From: an uncultured Clostridia bacterium
Lineage (GTDB): Bacteria; Bacillota; Clostridia; Christensenellales; UBA3700
Direction: 5' to 3'
DNA length: 64,000 bases
Assembly: GCA_947037025.1 (NCBI GenBank)
Contig: CAMQSU010000004.1
Location: forward strand, 1 to 64,000
Positions 8,389 through 42,211 of this stretch are shown here, in pieces. Position 1 is the stretch's first letter. The number at the start of each line of letters is the position of its first letter. Below the pieces are notes generated by a model. It made no database searches. It had not been told where the DNA came from and was given only the letters and a program-made list of their open reading frames with translations. The position numbers and the translations under genes were made by a program.

Positions 8389-11300
8389 ATGAGGAAAAAA
8401 AGTTTTGGAATGATTGTATCAATAATGATTATTCTCACCATGATGTGTGGAGTGCTTGTAGCATGTGCAAAGGAAGCACCTAAAGATGTGAACAAGGGCA
8501 ATATAGAATCAGCAATTGATGATAAATCTGCTATGTCCGACATAGTAAATGGCTGGCTAGCTGCAAACAACTGGACTGAGGGGGATACACTTGGATGGGA
8601 TACGAGCATTGACTATAGTTCGGACGTTGCGGGTGCAAACAACCTTTGCATACGATTCAATGGTGGGATAGATAATAGTGGCAATAGCGTTATTGATTTT
8701 GCTGTGATTAATAAATCTTTTGCAGATAAAGTTGAGTTTGGACTACAAATGTTAGGCGATAAATTCAACATTACTATACAAGGTAAGAGTTATACAAATA
8801 ACGAATTAGGTATCAACGACTTTGGATTAGCATTAGTTGCAAATGGTAGTGTTTCAAGCGCTATACAAACGGCATTATCTCTTATACCTATAATATTTAA
8901 TAATGCAGTTACTGTAAACAATATAGTATCAGAGCATGTGTCTGGAGAAGCTGCAGCAAATGGATCAATTTACGACGTAAATTATGATGTTACTCTTGAT
9001 ATTAATAAAGCAGTAGTAGGTGCAATTGACCTTGTGTCAGGATTGTTGACGAAGTATATAAGTGCAGAAAACATTGCAAGCATCAGAGATATATTAGATA
9101 CTGCATTGAAGGGCATTACAGTTCAATTTAATGTAGATGTAAAAGATAAGATACTTCAAGTAAAAACTCGTGTAAATGAGGAAAAAAACGAAATTAATTA
9201 TACATATTATTTCACAGATGGTTCTATTAGTGCAGATGCTTTTGACTTAAATGCAACTGTTTCAGGTGCTAATCATGATATTAAAATTAATGGATTAAAA
9301 TTTTTAAATAAAATCCCCACTATAATTGAGCCTGTAGGTGCAACAGAGGTTTACTTGTTGAAACATGAAATAAAGGGCTCTATTGAAAGTAGCAATGCGG
9401 CAAAAAAATTAATCAGTAAATATACATACAATATTAATATAGAGTTTTCCGCTGAAGGTTTAGTCAAGGCGATTATGAACAGTATTTCAACTAAGAGCGC
9501 GATACCTGTAATGACAGCACTGTTTGAAGATCAAAAGGGAAAAATGTTTGTAGATATTTCGCATAAATGTGCTGACTCGGAGGTTGGATGTAATGGACAT
9601 ATGACTACAAAAAGTGATGCGCCTGTCACTAATTTTGATGGCTCATTATTTTCTTTAGCATATGACGCAACTAATTTTGGGACAAGTAATATTTACGGCT
9701 CTGTAAATATCGCTGCACTGTTACCAGGAGATTTCATGACAACGTTAGGCAGTTTAGGATTACCAGCCGGTGTCACTCCAGCCTTAATATGGAATACAGC
9801 ATTGAAACCAAATTTACCAGTAGACGCAAGCTTTGTAGTTAATCCTAAATTAATTAGTAGTTATTATGCGGCTCGCACATCAAAAGGTAATACTGAAACA
9901 GTTGCCGATGCTAACGCTGCATATACAGAAAAGGCTACCGATATTGGCACTATAATTGGTGAATTAATAAAAGATATTGATTTTGATGCATTGCTTAAAT
10001 CTTTAACTACTAATCTGCAAGATGGTATCTTAGATATCGATGGCAAAAGCATTAGAGATTTAGCATCAAAGTTAATCACCGATTCAAAGTTGCCTGTAAG
10101 CACTGCTACTATCGTTAATTCGATAATTGATATGATAATAGGCACTGAAGATGGCGTAAATAACATTGCAATAGCAGCAAAATATAAAAATGGAGCTACG
10201 CTACCTACTGATTTTAACGTTAAAGAAAGTTTTATGAATGGTAAGGATTTTTCTCATCAAGGTACAGGCAATTCACCATCAATGAAAGCGCCGATAGGGA
10301 GTGAAATTGCTTTTGATAAGACAGGTGAATTTGTTCATGTATTCGGAGAGAAAGATAAGAATTATGATCTTCAAGCAGCAGATGGTAGTCCGCTTCCATT
10401 CAGTTATGAAGAGCTTATGACAGGGATAGATAAAACAAAAATTGGCAAAGCTTCTAGATATGTAAAAGGTAATTATACTGATATAAGTGGTAATGAAATA
10501 AAAGGCTCTAAGATGTATATTATGGATGTATTAGGATTAGACAAAACTATTACAAACAAACCACAAGAAATCACACTCGTATTAACTCGTGGTACTGGTC
10601 AAGGAATATACACAATTTTAGATAATATTCTACCACTTCTTAAAATGTTTGATATTATTAAAGAAATGCCGAATATATCTCTACCAGTTGCAACCGTTAA
10701 GAGTACTATCACTCTAAGAACTTTTAAGAGTGAAGGTTGGTCACAAGATCATATTTCAGAAGATTTAAGATTAGATACAGATAAGATATATTCGTTTGGT
10801 GACAAAGTAGCTATCGATCAAAGATACGTGCGTAAGTACTCGGGAGCAACTCAAAAGTCTTACAACGCTACAATATCATATGAAGGCACTACTCATTCTG
10901 TTTTTACAGATCCTTACAACATTATAGAAGGTGCGACTGTAGCGTTTTATAATGATGTGTTAGTTAAGTATAGCACAGTAGGTTTAGCAGGTGAAAAATT
11001 TAATACATCAGTAAAGGTTAACTCGAACGCTTCAGCTGAAGGTACGATAGAATTCAATTGCTATCAGACGAAAGCAGTAGATATTAATCCATTTACTGTT
11101 ATTAATCCAAAAACTGGACTTGGATTAGGACTATCGATTCAAAGTTTTAAGATATATATTGATGCATTCAAAAAAGCTAATACTGGCGTAACTGTTGTGG
11201 AAACATCCGACAGCTATTCTATAAGTTTTCCTGAGACTGCAGACACTGCGAATTATCAGTTTGAGGCAGTAGGTATTCGAGGTGATAAAGTTTTATTTAA

Positions 11301-11778
11301 ATTCACAGTAAATGTTAATGCAATTGTAGGATACAAGGCAGTATTTTTGCATGGTGCAGGTGGCATGGGTGCGGCCGCTGAAAATGAAGGAACTACTAAA
11401 TTAAACGCTTCAACAGAGGGGAATCCATTTGCAGCAGACCTAGCAGATACATTCTCATTCTGCGGAACAGGAACAGGAACAGTGTATGCTGATGGCACCT
11501 TAAAAGTCAGCAAGACAACTGCTGTGCCGCTTGCGCAAATCCTTGCTTATGTTAAAGATTCGGATGGCAACTGGACTTTAGTAGCGGACACGTCAGCAAC
11601 TTCTAAGGTAGTACAAATTAGTAAGTGGGCAATGGGCACCAAGATAAAATTTGCGGCGATTGGAGAGTATAAGCTTACTTACCAACCACTAGCCGCAAAT
11701 CACCCAGATGTAGACGGCATTGCTGTTTCATTAGATCTGGTGACAGTTTATACAAGTGTAATGAACAAAGCAGTTTAA
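8389..11778 (+). CDS. Giant lipoprotein of unknown function (1129 aa)
   Basis: It starts with a lipoprotein signal peptide: MRKK, a hydrophobic stretch, then the lipobox LVAC with Cys26. AAGGAGT precedes the ATG. The mature part is long, beta-rich and of low complexity in charge, with many Asn, Thr, Ser and Val residues. Segments such as SEGWSQDHISEDLRLD and GAGGMGAAAENEG belong to no family I know, and no catalytic motif stands out. It would be displayed on the outer face of the membrane. The divergent AraC/cupin regulator suggests a role in binding or handling a carbohydrate, but that is only context. A terminator follows at 11829-11868. Confidence 0.8.
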   Translation: MRKKSFGMIVSIMIILTMMCGVLVACAKEAPKDVNKGNIESAIDDKSAMSDIVNGWLAANNWTEGDTLGWDTSIDYSSDVAGANNLCIRFNGGIDNSGNSVIDFAVINKSFADKVEFGLQMLGDKFNITIQGKSYTNNELGINDFGLALVANGSVSSAIQTALSLIPIIFNNAVTVNNIVSEHVSGEAAANGSIYDVNYDVTLDINKAVVGAIDLVSGLLTKYISAENIASIRDILDTALKGITVQFNVDVKDKILQVKTRVNEEKNEINYTYYFTDGSISADAFDLNATVSGANHDIKINGLKFLNKIPTIIEPVGATEVYLLKHEIKGSIESSNAAKKLISKYTYNINIEFSAEGLVKAIMNSISTKSAIPVMTALFEDQKGKMFVDISHKCADSEVGCNGHMTTKSDAPVTNFDGSLFSLAYDATNFGTSNIYGSVNIAALLPGDFMTTLGSLGLPAGVTPALIWNTALKPNLPVDASFVVNPKLISSYYAARTSKGNTETVADANAAYTEKATDIGTIIGELIKDIDFDALLKSLTTNLQDGILDIDGKSIRDLASKLITDSKLPVSTATIVNSIIDMIIGTEDGVNNIAIAAKYKNGATLPTDFNVKESFMNGKDFSHQGTGNSPSMKAPIGSEIAFDKTGEFVHVFGEKDKNYDLQAADGSPLPFSYEELMTGIDKTKIGKASRYVKGNYTDISGNEIKGSKMYIMDVLGLDKTITNKPQEITLVLTRGTGQGIYTILDNILPLLKMFDIIKEMPNISLPVATVKSTITLRTFKSEGWSQDHISEDLRLDTDKIYSFGDKVAIDQRYVRKYSGATQKSYNATISYEGTTHSVFTDPYNIIEGATVAFYNDVLVKYSTVGLAGEKFNTSVKVNSNASAEGTIEFNCYQTKAVDINPFTVINPKTGLGLGLSIQSFKIYIDAFKKANTGVTVVETSDSYSISFPETADTANYQFEAVGIRGDKVLFKFTVNVNAIVGYKAVFLHGAGGMGAAAENEGTTKLNASTEGNPFAADLADTFSFCGTGTGTVYADGTLKVSKTTAVPLAQILAYVKDSDGNWTLVADTSATSKVVQISKWAMGTKIKFAAIGEYKLTYQPLAANHPDVDGIAVSLDLVTVYTSVMNKAV

Positions 11779-15699: not shown

Positions 15700-18600
15700 A
15701 TGAAAAAAGCGGCATCTTTAAAATATATAGTTGTATTGATGGTTGTAGTGATGTTTGGGCTATTTGCACTTACATGCATTGCATCAGTAGATATTGAAAT
15801 ATCAAATAATCACAATATCAGTAATACTAGCCAGAACGGGGGGTATCTAGCCGATCTAGCCGGTGACACTCAAATCGCTGATTATAGAAATATTAGGAAG
15901 ACAAATACCTACAATGTACCGCGCAATTTGCCAATTACATATGATGGCGGATTGTCGGCGTATCCAATTTATGGCAAGAGTTTAAGTAGTGTTGGTGCAG
16001 ATAAAGCGGCTGTAAAAGCGGAGAATTTGGCAATGTTTGATTATGACTCGATTGGTGCTGACGGAAAGTTATACAAAAATAACGTACAACTTGCAAAGCC
16101 GCATGACACATTAAAGAGGCATACATATTCAACTAATAATCTATATTTTGAAGACGCGATCGGTGACGATGTGCAAGCAATTGGCATGGATATATCATAT
16201 TATTATGATTCAGCCAAGGGATTAACTCCGTTAAATTTATATGCACTACCGGGCGAACTTATCAAAATAAACATCGCTGATATTGGCGTCGGAATGGAAG
16301 TAGTTATAGGGGCAAGTCCATTGAGTGTTGGCGCTAATCATACAGTAGGTGGTACTAATGGCAGTAATTGGGATTCCCGTATGCCACTACCATTCAAGGG
16401 TATTAAACTAAAGCAAGGCGAAAATTATGTAGGCACACAAAATGGCGGACCAATTTATGTAAGAAGCTTATCAAGTGCACCGAACCAAATATCTAGCATA
16501 GCACATGTGCTTAAATTCTCAATAGACGGAGTGGTAGAAATGCCTCATTTCGAGGTTGGATTTACTACTGAGGCGGAGTGGGAGAGGCTTAGAGTTTCTC
16601 CAGGCACATATTTTCACCTAGATGTTAACAGACTTGTACTATCAATGCCTGCAGAAATAGCAAGAAAGGTCAGTTTTGAAGAGATGAATGCGATTGCAAA
16701 TTTTTATTATAAGGCAATTAACGTATCATTGAATTTCACCACACCGGTGATGATGTCCCAATCTATTCCTATTACGCATTTTTATGATGTGTTCGTGCCT
16801 GCAGGCGAAGCGGTAGCAATTCCTGGCACACATATTACTATTGCACCTATGTATTGGAGAAATGGTGACTTAAACATAACTAATCTAATAAATAATGGTT
16901 CATGGGGAACAGTGCATGAAATTAATCATCATTTTCAAGGTGGATTTGGGGCTACTAGTGCCAATGTAGGCTTTGATGAGGTCAGCAATAATTCAATTAA
17001 CGCCGGAATTTATAGCGAATATACAAATGTATCAGCAAAAAGAAAAATGTATCTAAATGAGGGTAGAGACAGATATGAAGTAACTGGATTGAATTATTGG
17101 GATAAGGTTGCAGTACCATTTAATTCGATGCTACCACTTGCGGACAGAAGGGGTGATGCTTTAGGTGATTTATTATCGATGTATACAACTCTACAGCATG
17201 CTTTATCGTTAGATACGTATATTGAAGTTGCTGCTCATCAAAATGCACGAACAGGACAAACTAACATGAATCATGACACTTGGTTTTATTCTTTAGTGGA
17301 AGTTACAGGTTATGATATGACATATTATTATACAGAATTATGTAATTTTCCAGTAAATCAAGATCTACTTGATGCTACTGCAGCTAAAAATCTACCAATG
17401 TTTGTGCCTGTCACATCTCCACAGCAGAATGGCTCTACATATTGGGATACTGATAGTAATGGTGAAAGTGTGGAAAAGTTCCACTTTAGCGCAAGACCAT
17501 ATGAAGTAGCAGCTGATGAAAAATTACTGCTAGACCTTCAAAAACAAATGCTTGTTCCAGAAGGGTTTACAATGACTATCAAAAATGTAACAACATCTGG
17601 ATACGGTGAATTTGTTAATATTTCACCAGATACATTTACATATAAAGCTGATGGCAACTATAATAATGTAGGCAGAATGGATGTTACGGTATCACTAGTA
17701 AACGATGCAAATCCAAGCATGGAAATCAAAGATGTTACAATCATATCAGAGTTTGTAGTGAAGGCTGATAATAAGCCATTATTCATGCCTGAGCATGTAT
17801 ATAATCCAACCAAAACAACTCTAAACAAAATATATGCAGCAACTGGTGTAACGGCTGTTTCCACAAATCCATATAGGAGCAATGCAAATGTTATATTTGA
17901 TGGTAAGTATGCCTCTTATCATATGTTCCAACTAAAAGATGGACCAGCGAAAGTAGATGTGACTAGAGAGGATGCAGGCGGTTTTAATGAAATAATCATG
18001 GATATTGGTGGTGAAACCTTAACAGATGTTTCAGTTTACTACGGAGATGAGTTTAGTGATAATATGACTTTATTTAAAAAAGTAGATAATATTTCAATTA
18101 AAACTAAAAAGCTCACTATAAAGGGTGAAGATATACCTTCAGCAAAATGCGTGAGATTCGTGTTCAATGATGCCCACAAGGTTTTTGCAAGATATAAAAC
18201 AATTTCGCTGCATGAAGTTTATTTCAAAAGTACTGTTGTAATGAATAATTTTGTTGATGTTAATGATAATACAGTTGTTACTAAAACAGGCACATGGAAA
18301 ACTCTTCCTAATGCTTACCAATTAGGTAGCGGAGTGGTGGAGTCATATGACGGAGAGATAAATTTCAAGTTTTTCGGTAATGCGGTATCATTTAGTAGTA
18401 TAATAGGCCCTCAATATGGAATTGGTGAGTATAGACTTGATGGCGGAGAGTGGAAGGAGTTTAACTTAAACAATGACAAGTTTAAGTCTGGAAACATGAT
18501 AGCATTCGAAAAAAATCTGTCAAACATCGAGCATACTCTAACGATCAGAACAAAAGATGGTCACACTATTAATGTTGATGCTTTTAGGACAAGCAAAATG

Positions 18601-18780
18601 CAGGGTGATATAAATCCTATATTTTATCCAACTGATAAAGAGGTAGTTTTACCAGAAATCACTGACCCTGAGAGCAATCATACTATAGCAATTATTGTAG
18701 GCTGTGCATTGGGTGTTGAATTGTTAATCATCGGAGCAGTAGTGTCAATTATAATAGCTAAAAAACGAAAAAAAGCATAA
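15700..18780 (+). CDS. Secreted, membrane-anchored M60-family metallopeptidase
   Basis: The 1026-residue protein has an N-terminal signal peptide (1-29). The zinc-binding gluzincin motif HEINH (406-410) occurs in GTVHEINHHFQGGFG, with a likely third ligand E427 (FDEVSNN), the M60/enhancin pattern HExxH-x(8-28)-E. Regions C-terminal to it look like F5/8C-type or galactose-binding beta-sandwiches (about 725-850 and 855-975). A final TM helix with an RKKA-type basic tail anchors it to the cell. M60 peptidases cleave O-glycosylated mucins, fitting the fucose locus downstream. GGAGG precedes the ATG. A Fur-like box overlaps the start region, suggesting metal or iron control. Confidence 0.9.
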   Translation: MKKAASLKYIVVLMVVVMFGLFALTCIASVDIEISNNHNISNTSQNGGYLADLAGDTQIADYRNIRKTNTYNVPRNLPITYDGGLSAYPIYGKSLSSVGADKAAVKAENLAMFDYDSIGADGKLYKNNVQLAKPHDTLKRHTYSTNNLYFEDAIGDDVQAIGMDISYYYDSAKGLTPLNLYALPGELIKINIADIGVGMEVVIGASPLSVGANHTVGGTNGSNWDSRMPLPFKGIKLKQGENYVGTQNGGPIYVRSLSSAPNQISSIAHVLKFSIDGVVEMPHFEVGFTTEAEWERLRVSPGTYFHLDVNRLVLSMPAEIARKVSFEEMNAIANFYYKAINVSLNFTTPVMMSQSIPITHFYDVFVPAGEAVAIPGTHITIAPMYWRNGDLNITNLINNGSWGTVHEINHHFQGGFGATSANVGFDEVSNNSINAGIYSEYTNVSAKRKMYLNEGRDRYEVTGLNYWDKVAVPFNSMLPLADRRGDALGDLLSMYTTLQHALSLDTYIEVAAHQNARTGQTNMNHDTWFYSLVEVTGYDMTYYYTELCNFPVNQDLLDATAAKNLPMFVPVTSPQQNGSTYWDTDSNGESVEKFHFSARPYEVAADEKLLLDLQKQMLVPEGFTMTIKNVTTSGYGEFVNISPDTFTYKADGNYNNVGRMDVTVSLVNDANPSMEIKDVTIISEFVVKADNKPLFMPEHVYNPTKTTLNKIYAATGVTAVSTNPYRSNANVIFDGKYASYHMFQLKDGPAKVDVTREDAGGFNEIIMDIGGETLTDVSVYYGDEFSDNMTLFKKVDNISIKTKKLTIKGEDIPSAKCVRFVFNDAHKVFARYKTISLHEVYFKSTVVMNNFVDVNDNTVVTKTGTWKTLPNAYQLGSGVVESYDGEINFKFFGNAVSFSSIIGPQYGIGEYRLDGGEWKEFNLNNDKFKSGNMIAFEKNLSNIEHTLTIRTKDGHTINVDAFRTSKMQGDINPIFYPTDKEVVLPEITDPESNHTIAIIVGCALGVELLIIGAVVSIIIAKKRKKA

Positions 18781-30899: not shown

Positions 30900-32447
30900 T
30901 TGAGTGATGTTAATTTAAAAAACAAATTAGATTTTTCCAGTAAAATGGGCGAAGTTTATTTAGAGATGAAAGGTATTCATAAAAGGTTTGCCGGAGTACA
31001 CGCACTAAAAGGTGTTGACTTTAATTTGAAGTATGGTGAAGTCCATGCTTTAATGGGCGAGAATGGTGCTGGTAAGTCTACATTGATGAAAGTCCTTACA
31101 GGTATTCATCAACCGACTGAAGGTAGCATGACATTCCAAGGTGCAGTTTATGTTGCAGACAGTATCAATGATTCGCAGCACGCAGGTATCGGAATCGTTC
31201 ACCAAGAGTTGAACATGATGAATCACCTAACAGTTGCACAGAATATTTTCATTGGTAGAGAGTTTATGAAAACCGGCGCATGGATTGATGACGCTAAAAT
31301 GAATAAAGAGTCTACTAAGTTGTTTGATATGTTGGGAATAAATATTGACCCATCTGCAAAATTAGGAACTTTAACTGTTGGTAAACAGCAGATGGTAGAA
31401 ATTGCTAAAGCGGTTTCTCATGAGTCAAAAGTAATCGTTTTTGATGAGCCGACAGCGGCACTTACATCAAAAGAGATTGATGAGTTATTCAAAATAATTC
31501 GCGACTTGCAAACGCGAGGTATCGGTATCGTTTATATCTCACACAGAATGGATGAGGTTATGGACCTTAGCGATCGTATCACAGTAATGCGTGATGGTGA
31601 GTATGCAGGCACAGTCAATACTAAGGAAGTTACAAAAGATGATATCATTCAATTAATGATAGGACGAGTAGTATTTGAAGAGCCAAAGAGTCACTCAATG
31701 GTTCCAGAGGGTGCGGAAGTCGTTCTTGAAGTTAGAAACCTAACAGTAGGCAGAATGGTTAATGACCTTAGCTTTAATTTAAGACGCGGTGAGATTTTAG
31801 GTTTTGCGGGTCTTATGGGTGCAGGTAGGACTGAGATGGCTCGTGCTATATTCGGCGCAGACATCAAGGATCATGGCACAATTACAAGAAACGGCAGAAC
31901 AGTATCTATTAGATCTCCTAAAGATGCAGTTGCAGAAGGTATCAGTTATTTATCTGAGGATAGAAAAAGATACGGATTATTATTAGGCAAATCAATTGCG
32001 GAGAATTCATCTCTAGCAACACTTGATAAATATATTAAGCATGGCTGGATTAACGATAAAAAAATCGCTAAAGAAGCTACTGAATACAATGCAATGCTTA
32101 GGACTAAAACGCCATCAATACAACAACTACTTAAAAACTTATCTGGTGGTAATCAGCAGAAAGTTATCATTGCAAAATGGTTAATAAGAGATTGTGAAAT
32201 AATTATATTTGATGAGCCAACTCGTGGTATTGACGTTGGAGCTAAAAGCGAGATTTATCAACTAATGAATAAACTAGCAGCTGAAGGTAAATCAATAATT
32301 ATGATTTCAAGTGAGCTTGTAGAAATTCAGAGGATGAGCGATCGTGTTATAGTTATGTGCGAAGGCCGAAAGACAGCTGAGCTTGATATTAAGGACGCAA
32401 CTAGCGAAACAATAATGAAGTACGCAACACTAAGGGAGGGAGTTTGA
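30900..32447 (+). CDS. Sugar ABC transporter ATPase (RbsA/MglA-like), probable fucose importer
   Basis: This 515-residue duplicated ATPase has a canonical first Walker A (GENGAGKST, 53-61), Walker B VIFDEPTAAL and H-loop YISHRMDEV. The second half has the family's degenerate P-loop GLMGAGRTE and the signature LSGGNQQK. The architecture is typical of RbsA/MglA/XylG importers. It starts with TTG 30900, supported by GGAGGTG a few bases upstream. It is the first gene of the fucose transport operon, with the permease starting two bases after its stop. Fucose specificity is inferred from the downstream enzymes. Confidence 0.94.
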   Translation: MSDVNLKNKLDFSSKMGEVYLEMKGIHKRFAGVHALKGVDFNLKYGEVHALMGENGAGKSTLMKVLTGIHQPTEGSMTFQGAVYVADSINDSQHAGIGIVHQELNMMNHLTVAQNIFIGREFMKTGAWIDDAKMNKESTKLFDMLGINIDPSAKLGTLTVGKQQMVEIAKAVSHESKVIVFDEPTAALTSKEIDELFKIIRDLQTRGIGIVYISHRMDEVMDLSDRITVMRDGEYAGTVNTKEVTKDDIIQLMIGRVVFEEPKSHSMVPEGAEVVLEVRNLTVGRMVNDLSFNLRRGEILGFAGLMGAGRTEMARAIFGADIKDHGTITRNGRTVSIRSPKDAVAEGISYLSEDRKRYGLLLGKSIAENSSLATLDKYIKHGWINDKKIAKEATEYNAMLRTKTPSIQQLLKNLSGGNQQKVIIAKWLIRDCEIIIFDEPTRGIDVGAKSEIYQLMNKLAAEGKSIIMISSELVEIQRMSDRVIVMCEGRKTAELDIKDATSETIMKYATLREGV

Positions 32448-32449
32448 TA

Positions 32450-34384
32450 ATGGAAAATATAAATAAAAATATAAAGCTGAATATGAGAGGTGCCACTAGG
32501 CAGCTAGCTAACAAAAGCATTCATTCAGCTTGGTCTAAAGGTAAACAGATATTTATAATATTAGGGGCGCTAATTGCACTATTGCTAATATTTACAATTA
32601 TAGAACCTAATTTCCTAGGTAAAATAGGTTTCGCATCAATGTCTCAGAAATTAGCACCTTACGCTATAATGGCACTAGGAGTTACATTCGTTATTGCAAC
32701 GGGTGGCATTGACTTATCAATTGGTACTGTTTGTATAGCATCTGCATCAATTGCGGGTGGATTATTAGAAGCAGGTATGCCTCTAGCACTTACAATTCCA
32801 GTAATGCTTATTGTAGGTTTATTATTTGGTATCCTTAATGGTCTATTAATCGCAAAACTAAAAATGCCAGCATTTATCGCAACACTAGGTACTATGATGG
32901 TATCACGTGGACTAAGTGCTATCATAGTTAATAAGACAAGTGTATTGTTCCCAAATACTGGTTGGTCTAGGGAGTTATTCACAAGTATAGGTGATTTCCC
33001 AATTGGTCTTATGTGGGTTTTGGCTCTTACAGCAATATGCATGTACTTAATGTATAAGTGTAAGATTGGTCGTTACATCCTATCTATTGGTAGTAACGAA
33101 GAGGCAACTAGACTATCTGGTATAAACACAGATAGATATAAAATGTATGCTTATATGATTTCTGGTCTATTTGCTGGTATCGCAGCTATCTTCTGGGTAG
33201 CAGTTAGTCCAACTATTCAACCAGGTGGTGGTAATGGTATGGAGCTAGATGCAATTGCTGGAGTATACATCGGCGGTACAAGTGCTGCAGGTGGTATAGC
33301 ATCTATTGCTGGTTCACTTATTGGTAGTGCAATCCTTGTTGTGTTGTCTACTGGTTTGACTCAGGCATGTGTTGCATTTGGAATCCCTATCAACACTTTA
33401 TATTTGACTTACACTGTAACAGGTTTAGTAGTTGTGTTTGCAGTTTACCTTGATGTTGTTAAAAATAAAAATCAGGCTAAAGTTAAAATCGTTTCTCAAA
33501 AGACAAATTATCTAACTGAAAAGCGTGCAGTATTAGAATCAATGAAAGTTAATATAGATTATATTTTATCTGATAGGGCTTTAGCTGACGAAGTTAAAAA
33601 TGCTCAATCGGCAGCTCTTATCGAGAAAATTAATATATGTAAAAAGGATCTAAAGATCGAAAATCTTCAGGTAGGTGTAGATGCAGCAAAAGTATCTAGC
33701 TTGAAAGCAGATATTGCAACAGCAAAATCAGAACTTAAACAGTTCTATGCAGAAAACAAGATAGAGCTAAAAGAGCAACAAACAGTAAGAGTAGCAGCTA
33801 TTCGTGAAGAAATGGCAGTAATAAAAGCTGAAATGGCTATTGAATCTGTAAATCTTAAAGAAATTGATAATGAGAAAAACGCTCTTCTAGCAGGAATTGC
33901 CAAAACCTCAGCTTTAGAAGTTAAGCGTATTAAAGCAGAATCAAAAGCAGCTGCTAAAGAAAGTAAATTGCTTCAAGCTTGGAAAATGGATGACGAAACT
34001 AAAAATGAGCAACTAGTAGTAATTTTAGCTAAGATAACAGCTTGCAAAGCCGTTATTCAAAAAGAAATAGATTTAAGAAACTTTGATTTAATTCAGTCTA
34101 AAAAAGCTATATTAGCAGAGATTAAAGCAGAAAAGAAAAAAGATAAAGAGTCTATAAATATTAGTTTAATCGAGTCTAAAAAGGCTGAACTAGTAGAGAT
34201 TAAAGCAGAAATGAAAAAAGAAAAAAAGAATAGAGATATTGCGGCAATCAAAGCAAGTAAGCTTGCATTAGCAGCAGCTCAAGAAGAGCAAAATGCTTTC
34301 TTTACTGAAAACAAATCAGTAGTAGCAGCTGAAAGAGCTGAGACAGAGCGTTTAAGAAAAATTGCTTTAGCTGAAGCTGAGTAA
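32450..34384 (+). CDS. Sugar ABC permease (RbsC-like) fused to a long coiled-coil tail
   Basis: Residues 1-335 are a normal RbsC-type permease with multiple TM helices (ALGVTFVIATGGIDLSIGT, IATLGTMMVSRGL and IAGVYIGGTSAAGGIASI are conserved). A further 309 residues, absent from the family, follow after the last TM segment. This tail is Lys/Glu/Ala-rich, strongly helical and coiled-coil-like, with imperfect repeats of SKKAxLxEIKAExKK, and should be cytoplasmic. ATG 32450 after GGGAGGG is preferred to an upstream TTG at 32444. The reading frame is intact and codon use looks uniform, so it appears to be a genuine fusion. Confidence 0.9.
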   Translation: MENINKNIKLNMRGATRQLANKSIHSAWSKGKQIFIILGALIALLLIFTIIEPNFLGKIGFASMSQKLAPYAIMALGVTFVIATGGIDLSIGTVCIASASIAGGLLEAGMPLALTIPVMLIVGLLFGILNGLLIAKLKMPAFIATLGTMMVSRGLSAIIVNKTSVLFPNTGWSRELFTSIGDFPIGLMWVLALTAICMYLMYKCKIGRYILSIGSNEEATRLSGINTDRYKMYAYMISGLFAGIAAIFWVAVSPTIQPGGGNGMELDAIAGVYIGGTSAAGGIASIAGSLIGSAILVVLSTGLTQACVAFGIPINTLYLTYTVTGLVVVFAVYLDVVKNKNQAKVKIVSQKTNYLTEKRAVLESMKVNIDYILSDRALADEVKNAQSAALIEKINICKKDLKIENLQVGVDAAKVSSLKADIATAKSELKQFYAENKIELKEQQTVRVAAIREEMAVIKAEMAIESVNLKEIDNEKNALLAGIAKTSALEVKRIKAESKAAAKESKLLQAWKMDDETKNEQLVVILAKITACKAVIQKEIDLRNFDLIQSKKAILAEIKAEKKKDKESINISLIESKKAELVEIKAEMKKEKKNRDIAAIKASKLALAAAQEEQNAFFTENKSVVAAERAETERLRKIALAEAE

Positions 34385-34484: not shown

Positions 34485-35522
34485 ATGAAATTATCAAAAA
34501 AAATCTTAGCTGCAGCTGTAGTAGGCGTTGTAGCATGTACTAGTGTGCTACTTGTAGCATGTGCTCCTGCGAAAAATAGCAAGACAATTGCTATCGTAGC
34601 AAAAGGTTCAACTCACGCATTCTGGCAAAGTATGGAAGCCGGTGTTAAAGCTCAAGCTAAGGAGTTAGGTTACACTGTATCATTTGTGGGACCTGAGAAC
34701 GAAACTCCAGACAGCGTACCAGTGCAGAAAAACCAACTTGCAGCTGCCATGGCAACTAATCCTGCAGGAATAGGTCTAGCTACTATTGGTACAGGATACA
34801 ATGATTATTTAGAAGATCTATTTGATTCTAAAACTCCAGTTGTACAGTTCGATTCAGGTATTTATGCTGAAGATATGAAGGCCGTTGAAGATAGCTGGAA
34901 GAATCCAGTAAAATCTAAAGTTGCTACTAGTAACATTGCGGCAAGTGCATTAGCTGCTCAGAAAGTTATCGAAATGAATGGTGCTGAGATTAAAGCTAGT
35001 ACTGGAAAATATAAAATCGGTGTTCTTCAACATGATGCTACTCAAACAGGAAAGGATCGTGTAGCTGGCTTTCAAGAATATTTTAACAATTCAGAGTACA
35101 AAGATTTAGTTGAAATTACTGTTACTCTAGGTGAGGACGATAAGTATGCGACTACACTAGAGGGATTTGCTGCTGACACTGACTTAATTTACATGACTAA
35201 TGAGGGCGTTGTTTCAGAAGTTTTTGATGCAGTTACTGCACCTTCAACTGGAGCAGCTTATAATAATATGGATTTCTTCGGTTTTGATAGTGGTACTGCA
35301 CAATTAACTTGGATGGAAGATAAGGAAAATAAATTTGGTGCAGAGTTAATCGGTGCTATAACTCAGAATCCTTACCAGATGGGTGTTGATACAATTAATC
35401 AATTACACTTTGCAATAACACAAGAATACGCAAAGGTTACTGACATAGCATTAGCAGGAGCATTCTGGGACAAAGACAATATGGTTCAACTTGAGAAAGA
35501 TGGTTTACTATACAAAGGTTAA
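34485..35522 (+). CDS. Sugar-binding lipoprotein of the fucose ABC transporter
   Basis: The 345-residue protein has a lipoprotein signal peptide with lipobox LVAC (Cys26) and an RbsB-type binding fold (TIAIVAKGSTHAFWQSMEAG, GKYKIGVLQHDATQTGKDR, FFGFDSGT). It delivers sugar to the permease encoded just upstream. GGAGGGG precedes the ATG. The weak terminator behind it (35596-35632) may reduce read-through into the enzyme genes, a common way to make binding protein in excess. Confidence 0.93.
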   Translation: MKLSKKILAAAVVGVVACTSVLLVACAPAKNSKTIAIVAKGSTHAFWQSMEAGVKAQAKELGYTVSFVGPENETPDSVPVQKNQLAAAMATNPAGIGLATIGTGYNDYLEDLFDSKTPVVQFDSGIYAEDMKAVEDSWKNPVKSKVATSNIAASALAAQKVIEMNGAEIKASTGKYKIGVLQHDATQTGKDRVAGFQEYFNNSEYKDLVEITVTLGEDDKYATTLEGFAADTDLIYMTNEGVVSEVFDAVTAPSTGAAYNNMDFFGFDSGTAQLTWMEDKENKFGAELIGAITQNPYQMGVDTINQLHFAITQEYAKVTDIALAGAFWDKDNMVQLEKDGLLYKG

Positions 35523-35632: not shown

Positions 35633-35709
35633 ATATTTTATTATTATTTGAAAAAAAACATTTAGTCCGAAAGGAATAAATTTTATATAAAAAAATAGTG
35701 GAGGTAATT

Positions 35710-36132
35710 ATGCTGAAAAATGTGCCAAATATTATATCGCCAGAGCTACTTAAAATATTAGATGAAATGGGTCACGGTGATGAGATTGTAATCGCAGATG
35801 GAAATTTTCCTTCTAGTTCGTGCGCAAAAAGATTAGTACGATTAGATGGTCACAGTGGGACGCAAGTACTTGACGCTGTTTTGAAAATGATTCCAGTAGA
35901 TACTTATAGTGAAAATCCTATCTATCTTATGAAAGTAGTGGATGGAGTTAAAACTGTTCCTGAAATATGGAGTGAGTATGAAAAGACAATTAAAGCAAAC
36001 AATGAAAGATGCAAAATAGACAACCTAGAGCGTTTCGAGTTTTATGAGAGAGCAAAAAAAGCATATGCAATAATCGCTACAAGCGAAAGTGCATTGTATG
36101 CTAACATCATAATAACAAAAGGCGTCTTGTAA
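35710..36132 (+). CDS. fucU: L-fucose mutarotase
   Basis: This 140-residue RbsD/FucU-family protein has the catalytic-site segments MGHGDEIVIADGNFPS (His in GHGD) and, near the C terminus, FYERAKKAYAIIATSES with the conserved Tyr. FucU interconverts alpha- and beta-L-fucose, supplying the anomer used by the isomerase. ATG 35710 with GGAGGTAATT just upstream is preferred over the GTG at 35698. fucI follows 30 bp downstream. Confidence 0.95.
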   Translation: MLKNVPNIISPELLKILDEMGHGDEIVIADGNFPSSSCAKRLVRLDGHSGTQVLDAVLKMIPVDTYSENPIYLMKVVDGVKTVPEIWSEYEKTIKANNERCKIDNLERFEFYERAKKAYAIIATSESALYANIIITKGVL

Positions 36133-36162: not shown

Positions 36163-37920
36163 ATGAATTGCAAAATCGGAATTAGACCTACTATCGATGG
36201 TAGATGGGGCGGAATCAGAGAAGGGCTTGAGGCTCAAACAATGGGAATGGCAAAATCAGCTAAAAAGCTTATCGAAGAGAACGTTCGTTATGCTGATGGC
36301 ACTAAAGTTGAAGTAGTTATCTGCGACACAACAATTGGTGGTAGTGCAGAAGCTGCAGCTTGTGAAGAGCAATTTGCTGCTGCAAATGTAACAGCAACAT
36401 TAACAGTAACACCATGTTGGTGCTACGGTGGTGAGGTTATGGATCTTAACATAAGCACTACTAAAGCAATATGGGGCTTTAACGGCACTGAGCGTCCAGG
36501 CGCAGTTTTCTTAGCTGCAGCAATGAGTGGTCATGCACAACGTGGCCTTCCTGCATTTGCTATCTACGGAACAGAAGTTCAAGATAGTACAGATACAACA
36601 GTTCCTGCTGACGTACAAGAGAAGCTTTTACGTTTCGCACGTTGCGCAGTAGCAGTTGGACAAATGAAGAATAAGTCATATGTAAATATCGGCTCAATTT
36701 CAATGGGAATCGCTGGTAGTACTTGTGACCCTGCATTCTTGCAAAACTTCCTTGGCATACGTGCTGAGTGGGTTGACATGGTAGAGATTTTACGTCGTAT
36801 GGATCTTAAGATCTATGATGAGAAAGAGTATGACAAAGCAATCAAATGGGCTAAAACAAATTGCCCAGAGGGTGATGATAACAATGCTAAGCCACTTAGC
36901 AAAGAAGAGAAAGCATCACAATTTGAGTTCTCAGTTAAGATGACATTAATCATCCGTGACATTATGTTCGGAAACAAAGAGTTAAAGAAAATTGATCGTC
37001 ATGAGGAAGCACTAGGCAGAAATGCACTACTAGGCGGATTCCAAGGACAACGTCAATGGACAGATTACAAGCCAAATGCAGATTTTTCTGAGGCTGTATT
37101 AAACAGTACTTTTGACTGGAATGGTAAAAGAGAGCCAATGATATTAGCAACAGAGAATGATGGACTTAACGGCGTTGCAATGGTATTTGGTAAGTTACTT
37201 ACTGGCCGCGCAAGCATATTCGCTGACGTTAGAACATACTGGAGTGCAGATGCAGTTAATAGAGTAACTAAACATAAACTTGCAGGAAAAGCTAAAGATG
37301 GTATTATCCATTTGATCAACTCAGGCGCAGCAGCACTTGATGGTAGCGGTGCTACTAAAGATGCAAGCGGCAATTCTACTATGAAACAATGGTGGGATGT
37401 TACTGATAAAGATCAAAAAGATATGCTTGCAGCTACAAAATGGGCTCCAGCTAACTTAGGATATTTCAGAGGTGGCGGATTCTCAAGTCAATATATCAGC
37501 CGTGGAGAAATGCCTGTTACACTAATCCGTGTTAACATGATTGGCAACATGCCTACTTTGCAAATTGCAGAGGGTTACACAGTTGAGCTTCCAACAGATG
37601 TTAATGCAACATTACTAAACAGAACTGACCCAACATGGCCAAGCACATGGTTTGCTCCACGTTTAATGGCAGATCATAATGCATTCAAAGATGTATATTC
37701 AGTAATGGCAAATTGGGGTGCGAACCACGGTTCATTCACTTATGGACACATTGGTAAAGATTTAATTACAATGGCAAGTATGCTAAGAATGCCTGTATCA
37801 ATGCACAATGTTGAGGATTGCGATATTTATCGTCCACATGCATTCAGTGGTTTTGGTACAAAATGTACTGAGTCAAGTGACTACAGAGCATGCGCTCAAT
37901 ACGGTCCTCTTTACAAGTAA
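36163..37920 (+). CDS. fucI: L-fucose isomerase
   Basis: At 585 residues it is close to the E. coli enzyme (591). Recognisable features include the N-terminal IGIRPTIDGRWGGIREGLE, the active-site Glu/Asp region (ATENDGLNGVA) and the C-terminal MADHNAFKDVYSVMANWGANHGSFTYGHIG. It converts L-fucose to L-fuculose, using Mn2+, in the cytosol. AAGGAGAA precedes the ATG. It follows fucU directly. L- or D-arabinose isomerase activity is a known side reaction of the family. Confidence 0.97.
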   Translation: MNCKIGIRPTIDGRWGGIREGLEAQTMGMAKSAKKLIEENVRYADGTKVEVVICDTTIGGSAEAAACEEQFAAANVTATLTVTPCWCYGGEVMDLNISTTKAIWGFNGTERPGAVFLAAAMSGHAQRGLPAFAIYGTEVQDSTDTTVPADVQEKLLRFARCAVAVGQMKNKSYVNIGSISMGIAGSTCDPAFLQNFLGIRAEWVDMVEILRRMDLKIYDEKEYDKAIKWAKTNCPEGDDNNAKPLSKEEKASQFEFSVKMTLIIRDIMFGNKELKKIDRHEEALGRNALLGGFQGQRQWTDYKPNADFSEAVLNSTFDWNGKREPMILATENDGLNGVAMVFGKLLTGRASIFADVRTYWSADAVNRVTKHKLAGKAKDGIIHLINSGAAALDGSGATKDASGNSTMKQWWDVTDKDQKDMLAATKWAPANLGYFRGGGFSSQYISRGEMPVTLIRVNMIGNMPTLQIAEGYTVELPTDVNATLLNRTDPTWPSTWFAPRLMADHNAFKDVYSVMANWGANHGSFTYGHIGKDLITMASMLRMPVSMHNVEDCDIYRPHAFSGFGTKCTESSDYRACAQYGPLYK

Positions 37921-38079: not shown

Positions 38080-38149
38080 CACGTATTTGCTATGCAATTA
38101 ATAGTAGATGTGGTATAATATATTTATATACAAGCATGGAGGGAAAAAG

Positions 38150-39583
38150 ATGTCAAAAAAAGTATTAGCTTTTGATTTCGGTGCGTCAAGCGGCAGAGCT
38201 GTATTGTTTCATGTTATCGGCGGAAAGTTAGAAATGCAGGAAGTGCATAGATTCTCTAACGATCCTGTTGAGATAAACGGAACGTTACACTGGGACGTTT
38301 TAAGACTATATCACGAAATTAAAGTAGGTATAACCAAAGCGAAAGCAATAAGCGCATTTGATGCAATCGGAATTGACACATGGGGTGTTGATTTTGGGCT
38401 CATCGACGAAAATGGCAATTTGCTAGAGAATCCCGTACATTATAGAGATGAAAGAACAGACGGGTGCATGGAAAAAGTTTTTAAGCTTATACCTAAAAAA
38501 GAATTATATTTAAGATGTGGTTTGCAGTTTATGCGTTTTAACACATTGTTTCAATTATTTTATCTGCAAAATAACCGCAATGATTTGATGTCTAGGACAA
38601 AAAAATTATTGTTAATGCCAGATTTATTTGCATACTTCCTAACGGGAGAAATGCGTTCGGAGTTTTCGCTAGCGTCAACAACACAAATGTTGAACCCGAA
38701 AACAGACGAATGGGATTTGGAGTTGTTGAAAGAGTTAGGAATCAATTCAAACATTTTACCGCCTCTTATACATGCGGGTGAAACTTACGGAAAGTTGAGT
38801 CAGAAACTAGCTGATGAATTAGGAGTTCCAAGAATCCCTGTCATTGCAGTTTGTGCTCATGATACAGCCTCAGCAGTTGTTGCTGTTCCTGAAGATAAAG
38901 AGCAAATATTGTTTTTATCGTGCGGAACATGGTCACTTATCGGCACGGAGCTGCATAAGCCTATCTTAACGGAGAAGTCTTATGAATGCGACATGACAAA
39001 TGAGCGTGGATATAACAAAACAACTAGATTGCTAAAAAACATTATGGGGCTATGGATAATCCAAGAATGCCGCAGACAATGGGAACGTGAAGGCATAGAA
39101 ATATCTTTTGCGGAAATAGCAAAGCAAGCTAACGAAAGCGAACCATTTGCAAACTATATAGATGTTGATGCAAGTATCTTTGAAATGCCAGGTAATATGC
39201 CAGATCGTATTGTAAAATACTGTGCAGATCATGGACAAACACCACCACATACAATCGGTGAGATTGCAAGGTGTGTGTATGAAAGTTTAGCTGACAAGTA
39301 TCGCAAATCGTATCAAGAAATTGAGTCGGTTACTGGCAAAAAGTTCAACGTGTTGAACATTGTCGGCGGTGGATGTAATGCGGAAATATTATGTCAGTTC
39401 ACAGCGAATGCACTAAACATGACAGTATGTGCAGGACCGAGTGAAGGCACTGCAACGGGTAATGCGTTAGTTCAACTAATGGCATTAGGCGAAGTTGACA
39501 ACATATCAGAAGCAAGAAAAATAGTAAAAAACAGCACCGATATCAAGGTTTATAAACCAAGCGGTGTTTGGCTACACAAGTAG
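38150..39583 (+). CDS. FGGY carbohydrate kinase, RhaB-like; predicted L-fuculokinase
   Basis: The 477-residue FGGY kinase has the ATP/Mg motif LAFDFGASSGRAVLF, the sugar-binding IDTWGVDFGL, HDTASAVVAVP, SCGTWSLIG and the C-terminal VGGGCNAEILCQFTANA. Its sequence is much closer to rhamnulokinase (RhaB) than to E. coli FucK. Its place between fucI and fucO implies it phosphorylates L-fuculose to L-fuculose 1-phosphate, a non-orthologous use of the RhaB subfamily. ATG 38150 after GGAGGGA is preferred to a longer frame from 38108. No rhamnose isomerase or aldolase is in the window. Confidence 0.92.
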   Translation: MSKKVLAFDFGASSGRAVLFHVIGGKLEMQEVHRFSNDPVEINGTLHWDVLRLYHEIKVGITKAKAISAFDAIGIDTWGVDFGLIDENGNLLENPVHYRDERTDGCMEKVFKLIPKKELYLRCGLQFMRFNTLFQLFYLQNNRNDLMSRTKKLLLMPDLFAYFLTGEMRSEFSLASTTQMLNPKTDEWDLELLKELGINSNILPPLIHAGETYGKLSQKLADELGVPRIPVIAVCAHDTASAVVAVPEDKEQILFLSCGTWSLIGTELHKPILTEKSYECDMTNERGYNKTTRLLKNIMGLWIIQECRRQWEREGIEISFAEIAKQANESEPFANYIDVDASIFEMPGNMPDRIVKYCADHGQTPPHTIGEIARCVYESLADKYRKSYQEIESVTGKKFNVLNIVGGGCNAEILCQFTANALNMTVCAGPSEGTATGNALVQLMALGEVDNISEARKIVKNSTDIKVYKPSGVWLHK

Positions 39584-39684: not shown

Positions 39685-40833
39685 ATGGCAAGATTTATTT
39701 TGAATGAAACATCATATTTTGGTGCAGGTTCTAGGAGTGAGTTAAAAACTGAGGTTATCGCAAGAGGTGCTAAAAAAGTTTTCGTAGTTACTGATAACGA
39801 TTTATTAAAGTTCAATGTTGCAAAAATGGTTACTGATGTACTTGAGGGCGTAGTTCCTTATACAGTATTCAGTGATGTTAAACCAAACCCAACAGTTAAA
39901 AATGTTTTAGACGGTCTAAATGCTTTCAAAGCAAGCGGAGCAGATCTAATCGTTGCAATCGGTGGCGGAAGTGTTATCGATACATCTAAAGCAATCAGTA
40001 TTATATATAACAACCCAGAGTTCATTGATGTAATATCACTTGAAGGCTGTGCTGTAACAAAAAATAAAGGTATACCAATCGTTGCATTACCAACTACTGC
40101 AGGAACAGCAGCAGAGGTTACAATCAACTACGTTATCACTGATGAGAAAAACGGCAGAAAGCTTGTTTGCGTTGATCCTCATGATATCCCAGTTGTTGCA
40201 ATTATCGATGCAGAGCTTATGTCATCAATGCCAAAAGGCTTAACAGCTGCTACTGGTATGGATGCATTAACACACGCAATCGAAGGTTATATCACTAAAG
40301 CTGCATGGGAGTTATCTGACATGTTCGAGATTAAAGCAATTGAGCTTATCTCTAAGCATTTAAGAGCTGCTGTTGCAAACGGAAAAGATTTAGTAGCAAG
40401 AGAAGGAATGGCACTTGGACAATATGTTGCAGGTATGGCATTCAGTAACGTTGGTCTTGGTTGCGTACACGCAATGGCTCATCCTCTAGGCGCTAGATAT
40501 GATACACCTCATGGTGTTGCAAATGCACTATTACTACCTGTAGTTATGGAGTTCAACATGAAAGGCTCTGAGGCTAAGTACAAGAACATAGCAGCTGCTA
40601 TGGGCGTTGATGTATCTAAAATGAATGACTCTGAAGGTGCTCTTGCAGCTCTTGCAGCAGTTAGAAAATTATCTACAGACGTTGCAATTCCTCAAAAGTT
40701 ATCTGACATAAAAATTCCAATGGAAGGATTAGAGCAACTTGCAAAAGATGCTGTAGTTGATCCATGTGCAGGCGGAAACCCAATCGACATGACAGAGGCT
40801 CAAATTTTAGCATTATACAAGAAAGCTTTTTAA
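39685..40833 (+). CDS. fucO: Lactaldehyde reductase (iron-containing ADH)
   Basis: The 382-residue iron ADH has the FucO-type start (RFILNETSYFGAGSR), IVAIGGGSVIDTSKA, PTTAGTAAEVT, and the metal site in MDALTHAIEGY through GCVHAMAHPLGARYDTPHG. FucO reduces L-lactaldehyde, released by the fuculose-phosphate aldolase, to L-1,2-propanediol with NADH, balancing redox under anaerobic growth. AGGAGG precedes the ATG. It lies between the kinase and aldolase genes. Confidence 0.95.
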   Translation: MARFILNETSYFGAGSRSELKTEVIARGAKKVFVVTDNDLLKFNVAKMVTDVLEGVVPYTVFSDVKPNPTVKNVLDGLNAFKASGADLIVAIGGGSVIDTSKAISIIYNNPEFIDVISLEGCAVTKNKGIPIVALPTTAGTAAEVTINYVITDEKNGRKLVCVDPHDIPVVAIIDAELMSSMPKGLTAATGMDALTHAIEGYITKAAWELSDMFEIKAIELISKHLRAAVANGKDLVAREGMALGQYVAGMAFSNVGLGCVHAMAHPLGARYDTPHGVANALLLPVVMEFNMKGSEAKYKNIAAAMGVDVSKMNDSEGALAALAAVRKLSTDVAIPQKLSDIKIPMEGLEQLAKDAVVDPCAGGNPIDMTEAQILALYKKAF

Positions 40834-40915: not shown

Positions 40916-42211
40916 ATGAATCAAAAATTTAAACACCCAGCTGATCTATTAGTTGAGTTGATGAATCGCGTTTATTACCGTGGAATGACAACAACTTCAG
41001 GCGGAAACTTTTCAATGAAGGATGAAGATGGTAATATTTGGATTACTCCAAGCGGTATTGATAAAGGCACATTAACAAGAGAAGATATCGTTAAAGTTGC
41101 ACCAAACGGAGAGCGTTTTGGTAAACATAACCCATCATGTGAGCTACCATTTCATACAAAAGTGTATGAAGTTAGACCTGATATGAAAGCTGTTTTCCAT
41201 GCACATCCTCCAGCACTTGTGTCAATTAGCTTATTACGTAGAAAAGCTAAAATCAACTTGCTACCAACATTCTCAACAAAAGTTAAGAAGCTTGATACAA
41301 GTGTATATGACATTCCGGGCAGCATAGGATTAGGAGAGAAAATTTCAAAAGTTTTCGCTGCTGGCTCTGATGCAGTTATGATGGAAAATCATGGAATAGT
41401 TGTATGCGGAACTGATTTATATGACGCATTCAAGAAATTTGAGGCTATGGAAACTGCAGCTAACTTAACTTTAGAATGTCAAACATTCGGCAAAGAGAAA
41501 GAGCTTAACAGATCTCAGATTAAAGCATTCGGCAATGTGAAAACAGTAATGAAGAATGGCAAAATAGTTAGTTCAACTAATGAAATTGATTTACGTAACT
41601 CAATGGTTAAGTTCTCTCAAAGATCTTATCACCATAGACTATTTGATTCAACTGAAGGTATCTATGCAGTACGTGAGGATGATAATAACTTCCTAATCAT
41701 GGCAGATGATGTTGACAGAAAGTTGCTTGAAGCATGTGATATTGTTAAAGTGCAAAATGGTGTTGCAGAGCTAGGCAAAAAGCCTTCTCGTTATTCTGAT
41801 ATTTGTAGCGCAATATTTGCAAAAAACAAAGCAATTGGTTCAGTAGCAGTAGCACAACCAGTTTACGCTATGGCATTCGGTGCAACAGGACACTTCTTGG
41901 ATTCAAGAACTATTCCAGAAAGTTACATCAACATGCGTGACGTTGTTCATGTTAAATATGATGATTTCGTAGCAAACCCACTTTTAGTAGTTGACATTTT
42001 ATCACTAGTAACTCCAATAGTTATCGTTGATAATGCGTTGGTATTTGTAGTAGGTGCTAACATCACAAAATGTTTTGATTCACTTGAGGTTACTGACTTC
42101 ACAGCTAAAACATTATTGAATGGCGCGCGTTTGAAGAAATTAGGAGCTATCCAAACAATTTCTGATCAAGAAGTTGAAGACATGATAGTTGCTTTTAATT
42201 TACCTAGATAA
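40916..42211 (+). CDS. fucA: L-fuculose-phosphate aldolase with second degenerate aldolase domain
   Basis: The first 210 residues form a class II aldolase/adducin domain with active-site Glu in PSCELPFHTKVY, zinc ligands in VFHAHPPA and a third His in MMENHGIVVCG. It would split L-fuculose 1-phosphate into DHAP and L-lactaldehyde. The protein is 431 residues, about twice the E. coli length. Residues 220-431 look like a second aldolase/adducin fold in which the HxH and ENHG ligands are lost (AVAQPVYAMAFGATG, NALVFVVGANI). The extra domain is probably structural or regulatory. Confidence 0.92.
   Translation: MNQKFKHPADLLVELMNRVYYRGMTTTSGGNFSMKDEDGNIWITPSGIDKGTLTREDIVKVAPNGERFGKHNPSCELPFHTKVYEVRPDMKAVFHAHPPALVSISLLRRKAKINLLPTFSTKVKKLDTSVYDIPGSIGLGEKISKVFAAGSDAVMMENHGIVVCGTDLYDAFKKFEAMETAANLTLECQTFGKEKELNRSQIKAFGNVKTVMKNGKIVSSTNEIDLRNSMVKFSQRSYHHRLFDSTEGIYAVREDDNNFLIMADDVDRKLLEACDIVKVQNGVAELGKKPSRYSDICSAIFAKNKAIGSVAVAQPVYAMAFGATGHFLDSRTIPESYINMRDVVHVKYDDFVANPLLVVDILSLVTPIVIVDNALVFVVGANITKCFDSLEVTDFTAKTLLNGARLKKLGAIQTISDQEVEDMIVAFNLPR

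Follow-up and report, generated by a model that had tools for sequence, protein, structure and literature searches.

The closest described system to the locus studied here is the Cphy_2010-2012 fucose importer of Clostridium phytofermentans, a CUT2 ABC transporter that is reported to be induced 58-82-fold on fucose (PMC3557285). The system shares with our locus the gene order ATPase, permease and binding protein, the monosaccharide-importer family, and a functional link to fucose mutarotase, isomerase and kinase (PMC3557285). However, the transporter and catabolic genes of C. phytofermentans lie in separate operons, whereas they form one cluster here; a permease tail goes unmentioned in the part of that paper considered here, a silence that is not a test of its absence (PMC3557285). 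Regulatory C-terminal tails on transporters have precedents in ProP, BetP and OpuA, membrane transporters that likewise extend at the C-terminus into the cytoplasm (PMC10710835). They differ from our protein in substrate, transporter class and osmosensing role, are not known to be related to it in sequence, and resemble it in manner of working only.

The permease described here lies in a window of 64,000 nucleotides, by which we mean the whole stretch of DNA that was analysed. It resembles the RbsC, AraH and MglC permeases (PF02653) over the entire core (residues 67-331), but it adds a 309-residue tail, whereas the surveyed RbsC-type relatives have at most about 35 residues beyond the matched core. 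RbsC-type importers contain two permease copies per transporter. When an ABC importer has an accessory domain, the ATPase usually carries it (MetNI, ModABC) rather than the permease.

The permease gene and its operon

The start codon is most likely ATG 32450, which lies 6 bases within the listed TTG frame and has a purine-rich site just 5' of it. From this ATG to the stop at 34384, a single unbroken frame of 644 aa runs on the + strand, and the tail (residues 336-644) is in frame with the core without any stop codon. When the tail DNA was resampled 5000 times with a Markov model, the frame never stayed open. In addition, the G+C contents of the three codon positions in the tail (0.49/0.29/0.18) show the same coding pattern as in neighbouring genes, up to the tail end. 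The permease core and the tail are fused into one protein, as the first-pass annotation had proposed from the uninterrupted frame. Its tail length of 309 residues stands, but the start that it gave, 33456, is out of frame by one base; the in-frame start is 33455.

The Pfam model BPD_transp_2 covers residues 67-331 (E 1.9e-42; 145.7 bits vs. a cut-off of 26.8), and the top PDB fold match of the core is a BtuC-like importer (E 2e-3). In the ATPase gene, Pfam ABC_tran matches in two stretches, and the best NCBIfam models are RbsA and related ones, under the equivalog cut-off. ATPase orthologues, 60-69% identical, stand directly 5' of every checked orthologous permease having upstream sequence, and binding-protein orthologues come after the permease in most loci. 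With its BPD_transp_2 core, an adjacent ATPase of two ABC domains and a Peripla_BP_4 gene in the operon, the protein belongs, judged by sequence and gene order, to a CUT2-type (RbsABC-like) ABC importer, of which it is the transmembrane subunit. Genes for FucU, FucI and FucO lie downstream and link the importer to fucose catabolism; L-fucose is probably the substrate, as the gene context suggests. The earlier assignment to a sugar importer agrees with these results. FucU and/or FucI also adjoin the orthologues L036, L039, L040 and L057. Upstream of the importer genes lie those of a histidine kinase/response regulator pair, along with a gene for another binding protein.

Three side observations concern the surroundings. 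The aldolase contains two Aldolase_II stretches and, at 431 aa, is roughly double the size of the matched FucA models (205-215 positions). A protein of 1129 aa (8389-11778) gave no Pfam match at 1e-5. Near the fucose cluster, an M60-like (enhancin-like) peptidase is encoded at 15700-18780, which would fit growth on mucin.

Table 1. Coordinates of the importer, tail and fucose pathway features in the window.
Feature	Position	Strand	Basis
RbsA-type ATPase of the sugar ABC transporter, with two ATPase domains in a single chain	30900..32447	+	Pfam, NCBIfam
RbsC-type permease core, residues 1-335	32450..33454	+	BPD_transp_2, PDB fold match
C-terminal K/A/E-rich helical tail, 309 residues and stop codon	33455..34384	+	Open frame, coding signature
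Membrane-proximal helical hairpin, homologous to tails of 7 orthologues	33497..33676	+	Profile scores, prediction
Extension specific to the window, helices predicted at 412-509 and 515-643, turn 510-514	33683..34378	+	AlphaFold2 of tail
Tandem pair of 78-bp (26-aa) units inside the extension	34085..34240	+	TRF, in-frame comparison, self-comparison
Sugar-binding lipoprotein of the same importer	34485..35522	+	Peripla_BP_4
Fucose mutarotase, FucU/RbsD family	35698..36132	+	PF05025, E 1.8e-43
L-fucose isomerase FucI	36163..37920	+	NCBIfam fucI, 915.8 vs. equivalog cut-off 850 bits
FGGY kinase, presumably fuculo-/rhamnulokinase	38108..39583	+	Rhamnulokinase model, 501 bits, just under cut-off 528
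Lactaldehyde reductase FucO	39685..40833	+	NCBIfam above cut-off
Class II aldolase, presumably fuculose-phosphate aldolase	40916..42211	+	PF00596 in two stretches; FucA-like models below cut-off

The shared hairpin and the extension of the tail

About 21 distinct orthologues with 55-66% identity to the window permease were assembled from a genome-collection scan and from order- and class-level searches. In the 46 genomes of the genus and family to which the window belongs, only remote paralogues of the permease occurred. Thirteen of the approximately 21 orthologues finish in a short basic tail, about 16-32 residues past the core, and eight, the window included, extend at least 61 residues past it. 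In the seven other long-tailed orthologues, the tails (61-114 aa) can be aligned to the initial ~75 residues of the window tail in a pattern of two helices and a turn, and their hairpin of about 60 aa is at the same site as in the window permease. The hairpin helices comprise residues 350-374 and 380-409 with the turn SDRAL, and Asp 370 is invariant in the alignment of the hairpin carriers.

We compared the profile scores with those of shuffled sequences. First, a profile built without the window gave the full window tail 21.6 bits, whereas none of 2000 shuffled versions exceeded 17.2. In addition, the window hairpin scored 26.3 with its leave-one-out profile vs. at most 11.8 in shuffles. Finally, the leave-one-out scores exceeded all 500 shuffles in seven of the eight rows, L055 being marginal (4/500 as high). 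The homology is colinear from the core into the tail through residue ~405. The view that an RbsC-type permease stops once its last transmembrane helix is complete is correct for nearly all relatives but fails in this clade, where 8 of ~21 carry the hairpin.

The nearest relative of the window in the core tree is L035 (support 95/93), and the window branch is long. The L035 tail of 114 aa is second in length only to that of the window, and the turn sequences of the two are alike (DYVLSDKRLLQEERLAQSA vs. DYILSDRALADEVKNAQSA). Across bootstrap trees, the long-tail label has to change a minimum of 4-6 times, so the hairpin has been gained or lost often. It is missing in over half of the orthologues, and L057 is without it though it belongs to the same genus as the carrier L056. 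Past residue 410, no counterpart of the extension was found among the ~21 orthologues, and this part occurs in one genome only. By these alignments, the window tail opens with the hairpin of its clade and continues with about 235 added residues.

The tail is Lys/Glu/Ala-rich, as first described, with 50 K, 49 A, 37 E, 29 I and 27 L, two glycines and no proline in 309 residues. The SKKAxLxEIKAExKK repeats reported at first sight correspond to two tandem copies of the 26-aa unit, with a self-match score of 101, whereas none of 200 shuffles exceeded 74. The extension thus grew partly via in-frame tandem duplication. The two copies differ at 10 nonsynonymous and 3 synonymous codons, and these differences give no sign of strong constraint on the units. 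An origin of the whole tail from two hairpins was considered (residues 380-404 vs. 515-539), but the self-match of 50 was inside the shuffle range and is left as a hint.

AlphaFold2 predicted a confident core, the hairpin (pLDDT ~72-92, mostly near 90) and then the two long helices. The packing of these helices is unreliable, because the tail alone reached a pTM of 0.36. A fold search with the tail returned no significant solved structure; its matches were unspecific long helices, the best of them with E 0.015. Neither a heptad (3.5) nor a hendecad (3.67) hydrophobic periodicity peaked above shuffles in the tail; a weak 3.6 helical signal was confined to tail residues 75-165 (21/500 shuffles). 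The coiled coil of the first-pass annotation is therefore borne out only in part: long continuous helices are predicted, but the heptad periodicity does not rise above shuffles.

Candidate roles of the tail

We give about even chances to the tail being an accessory cytoplasmic helical arm that either self-associates or contacts the ATPase, by analogy with the regulatory or oligomerising tails of other transporters. The permeases of the clade would carry an optional cytoplasmic helical hairpin past the last transmembrane helix, and this lineage would have lengthened it, partly by in-frame tandem duplication, to a long all-helical arm. Since each transporter has two permease copies, two arms would reach into the cytoplasm beside the ATPase. 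The hairpins may pack on one another or on the ATPase, and the long helices may self-associate, so that activity is modulated or transporters are kept close to each other; the C-terminal tails of ProP and BetP, although unrelated, would be the model for such a role. We infer the cytoplasmic side of the tail, its self-association and a regulatory role. The hairpin-less majority, the one-genome extension, the unconstrained-looking copies, the lack of heptads and the low pTM speak against such an arm. The tail is best read as fast-evolving and as dispensable for most relatives; orthologous importers in the same operon type manage without it.

Close behind ranks a mostly neutral expansion, which we regard as a serious, if somewhat less probable, explanation. 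The hairpin would be an optional stabiliser, and the ~235 extra residues would be a low-complexity helix driven by slippage or duplication, tolerated rather than used. The occurrence of the extension in one genome, the tandem duplication with two loosely diverged copies, the restricted composition and the repeated coming and going of tails are in its favour. However, 235 residues are still open, proline-free and predicted to form long helices, and the genome is small (1.6 Mb assembly, 74% complete). In a bolder reading, the hairpin and its expansion might together be a module, new to science, that regulates or clusters the fucose importers of gut clostridia, with the assembly or activity of the transporter set by the length of the arm (0, ~60 or ~300 residues); we consider this unlikely.

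Transporter clustering, FucI tethering and ATPase gating, the roles put forward by the first-pass annotation, are conjectures. A scaffold role, in which the tail would hold FucI, FucK or other catabolic enzymes at the importer, is quite improbable. The pathway genes are adjacent and long helices could bind partners, yet the importers L036, L039 and L057 adjoin FucI or FucU and have no tail, and the tail contained no known binding motif or domain. A frameshift or misassembly that fused the permease to a separate gene is very unlikely, because orthologues carry the hairpin and the window tail consists of this hairpin and a partly duplicated extension: the draft assembly (63 contigs, 74% complete), the A-rich runs near 34214-34230 and a distal tail without homologue would allow it, but the colinear homology, the persisting codon-position signature, the intact orthologous order ATPase-permease-binding protein on both sides, no excess of promoters or terminators inside, and no stop or second-gene signal all argue against it. 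Both objections that the first-pass annotation had raised to its own reading fall away, as nothing in the sequence bears the mark of a frameshift and relatives share the initial part of the tail.

The same core with no tail, with a hairpin or with a 300-residue arm makes a natural length series within one clade. Such a series suits the question of whether tails regulate, cluster or merely decorate the transporter.

Tails on other permeases

No tail of comparable length was found among ~150 listed RbsC-type permeases from 299 genomes of the phylum, in line with the exceptional length first claimed; this survey is not a full census, because at most four candidates were scored per genome. In class- and order-wide profile searches, the strong hairpin matches were these permeases only, and the remaining matches had E values of at least 0.0014 and partial coverage. 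The tail had no known domain or sequence match in Pfam, NCBIfam, PHROG or PDB sequences, and the weak Pfam matches of the hairpins (E>0.002) were mutually inconsistent. A coiled-coil tail on sugar permeases was not found in the literature, of which coverage was incomplete.

The idea of a tail without precedent has to be given up, given the homologous hairpin in seven orthologues and a second long tail elsewhere. A remote RbsC-type permease of a Bacilli MAG (L053:4944-6662) has its own ~200-aa K/E/A/L-rich C-terminal tail. As a homologue of the window tail it was rejected: its score of 18.1 bits falls below the best block shuffle (19.4), so that only a likeness in composition is shown.

The few further long open frames that the survey of the phylum brought up had ordinary short ends or, in one case, encoded a permease-ATPase fusion. 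In L105 (G1051:C43), an ORF of 919 codons encodes an RbsC-type permease and then an RbsA-like double ATPase in one frame. The paralogous sugar permeases L006 and L005, from the window's genome and a genus relative, have no C-terminal tail and carry an N-terminal extension of ~130 residues.
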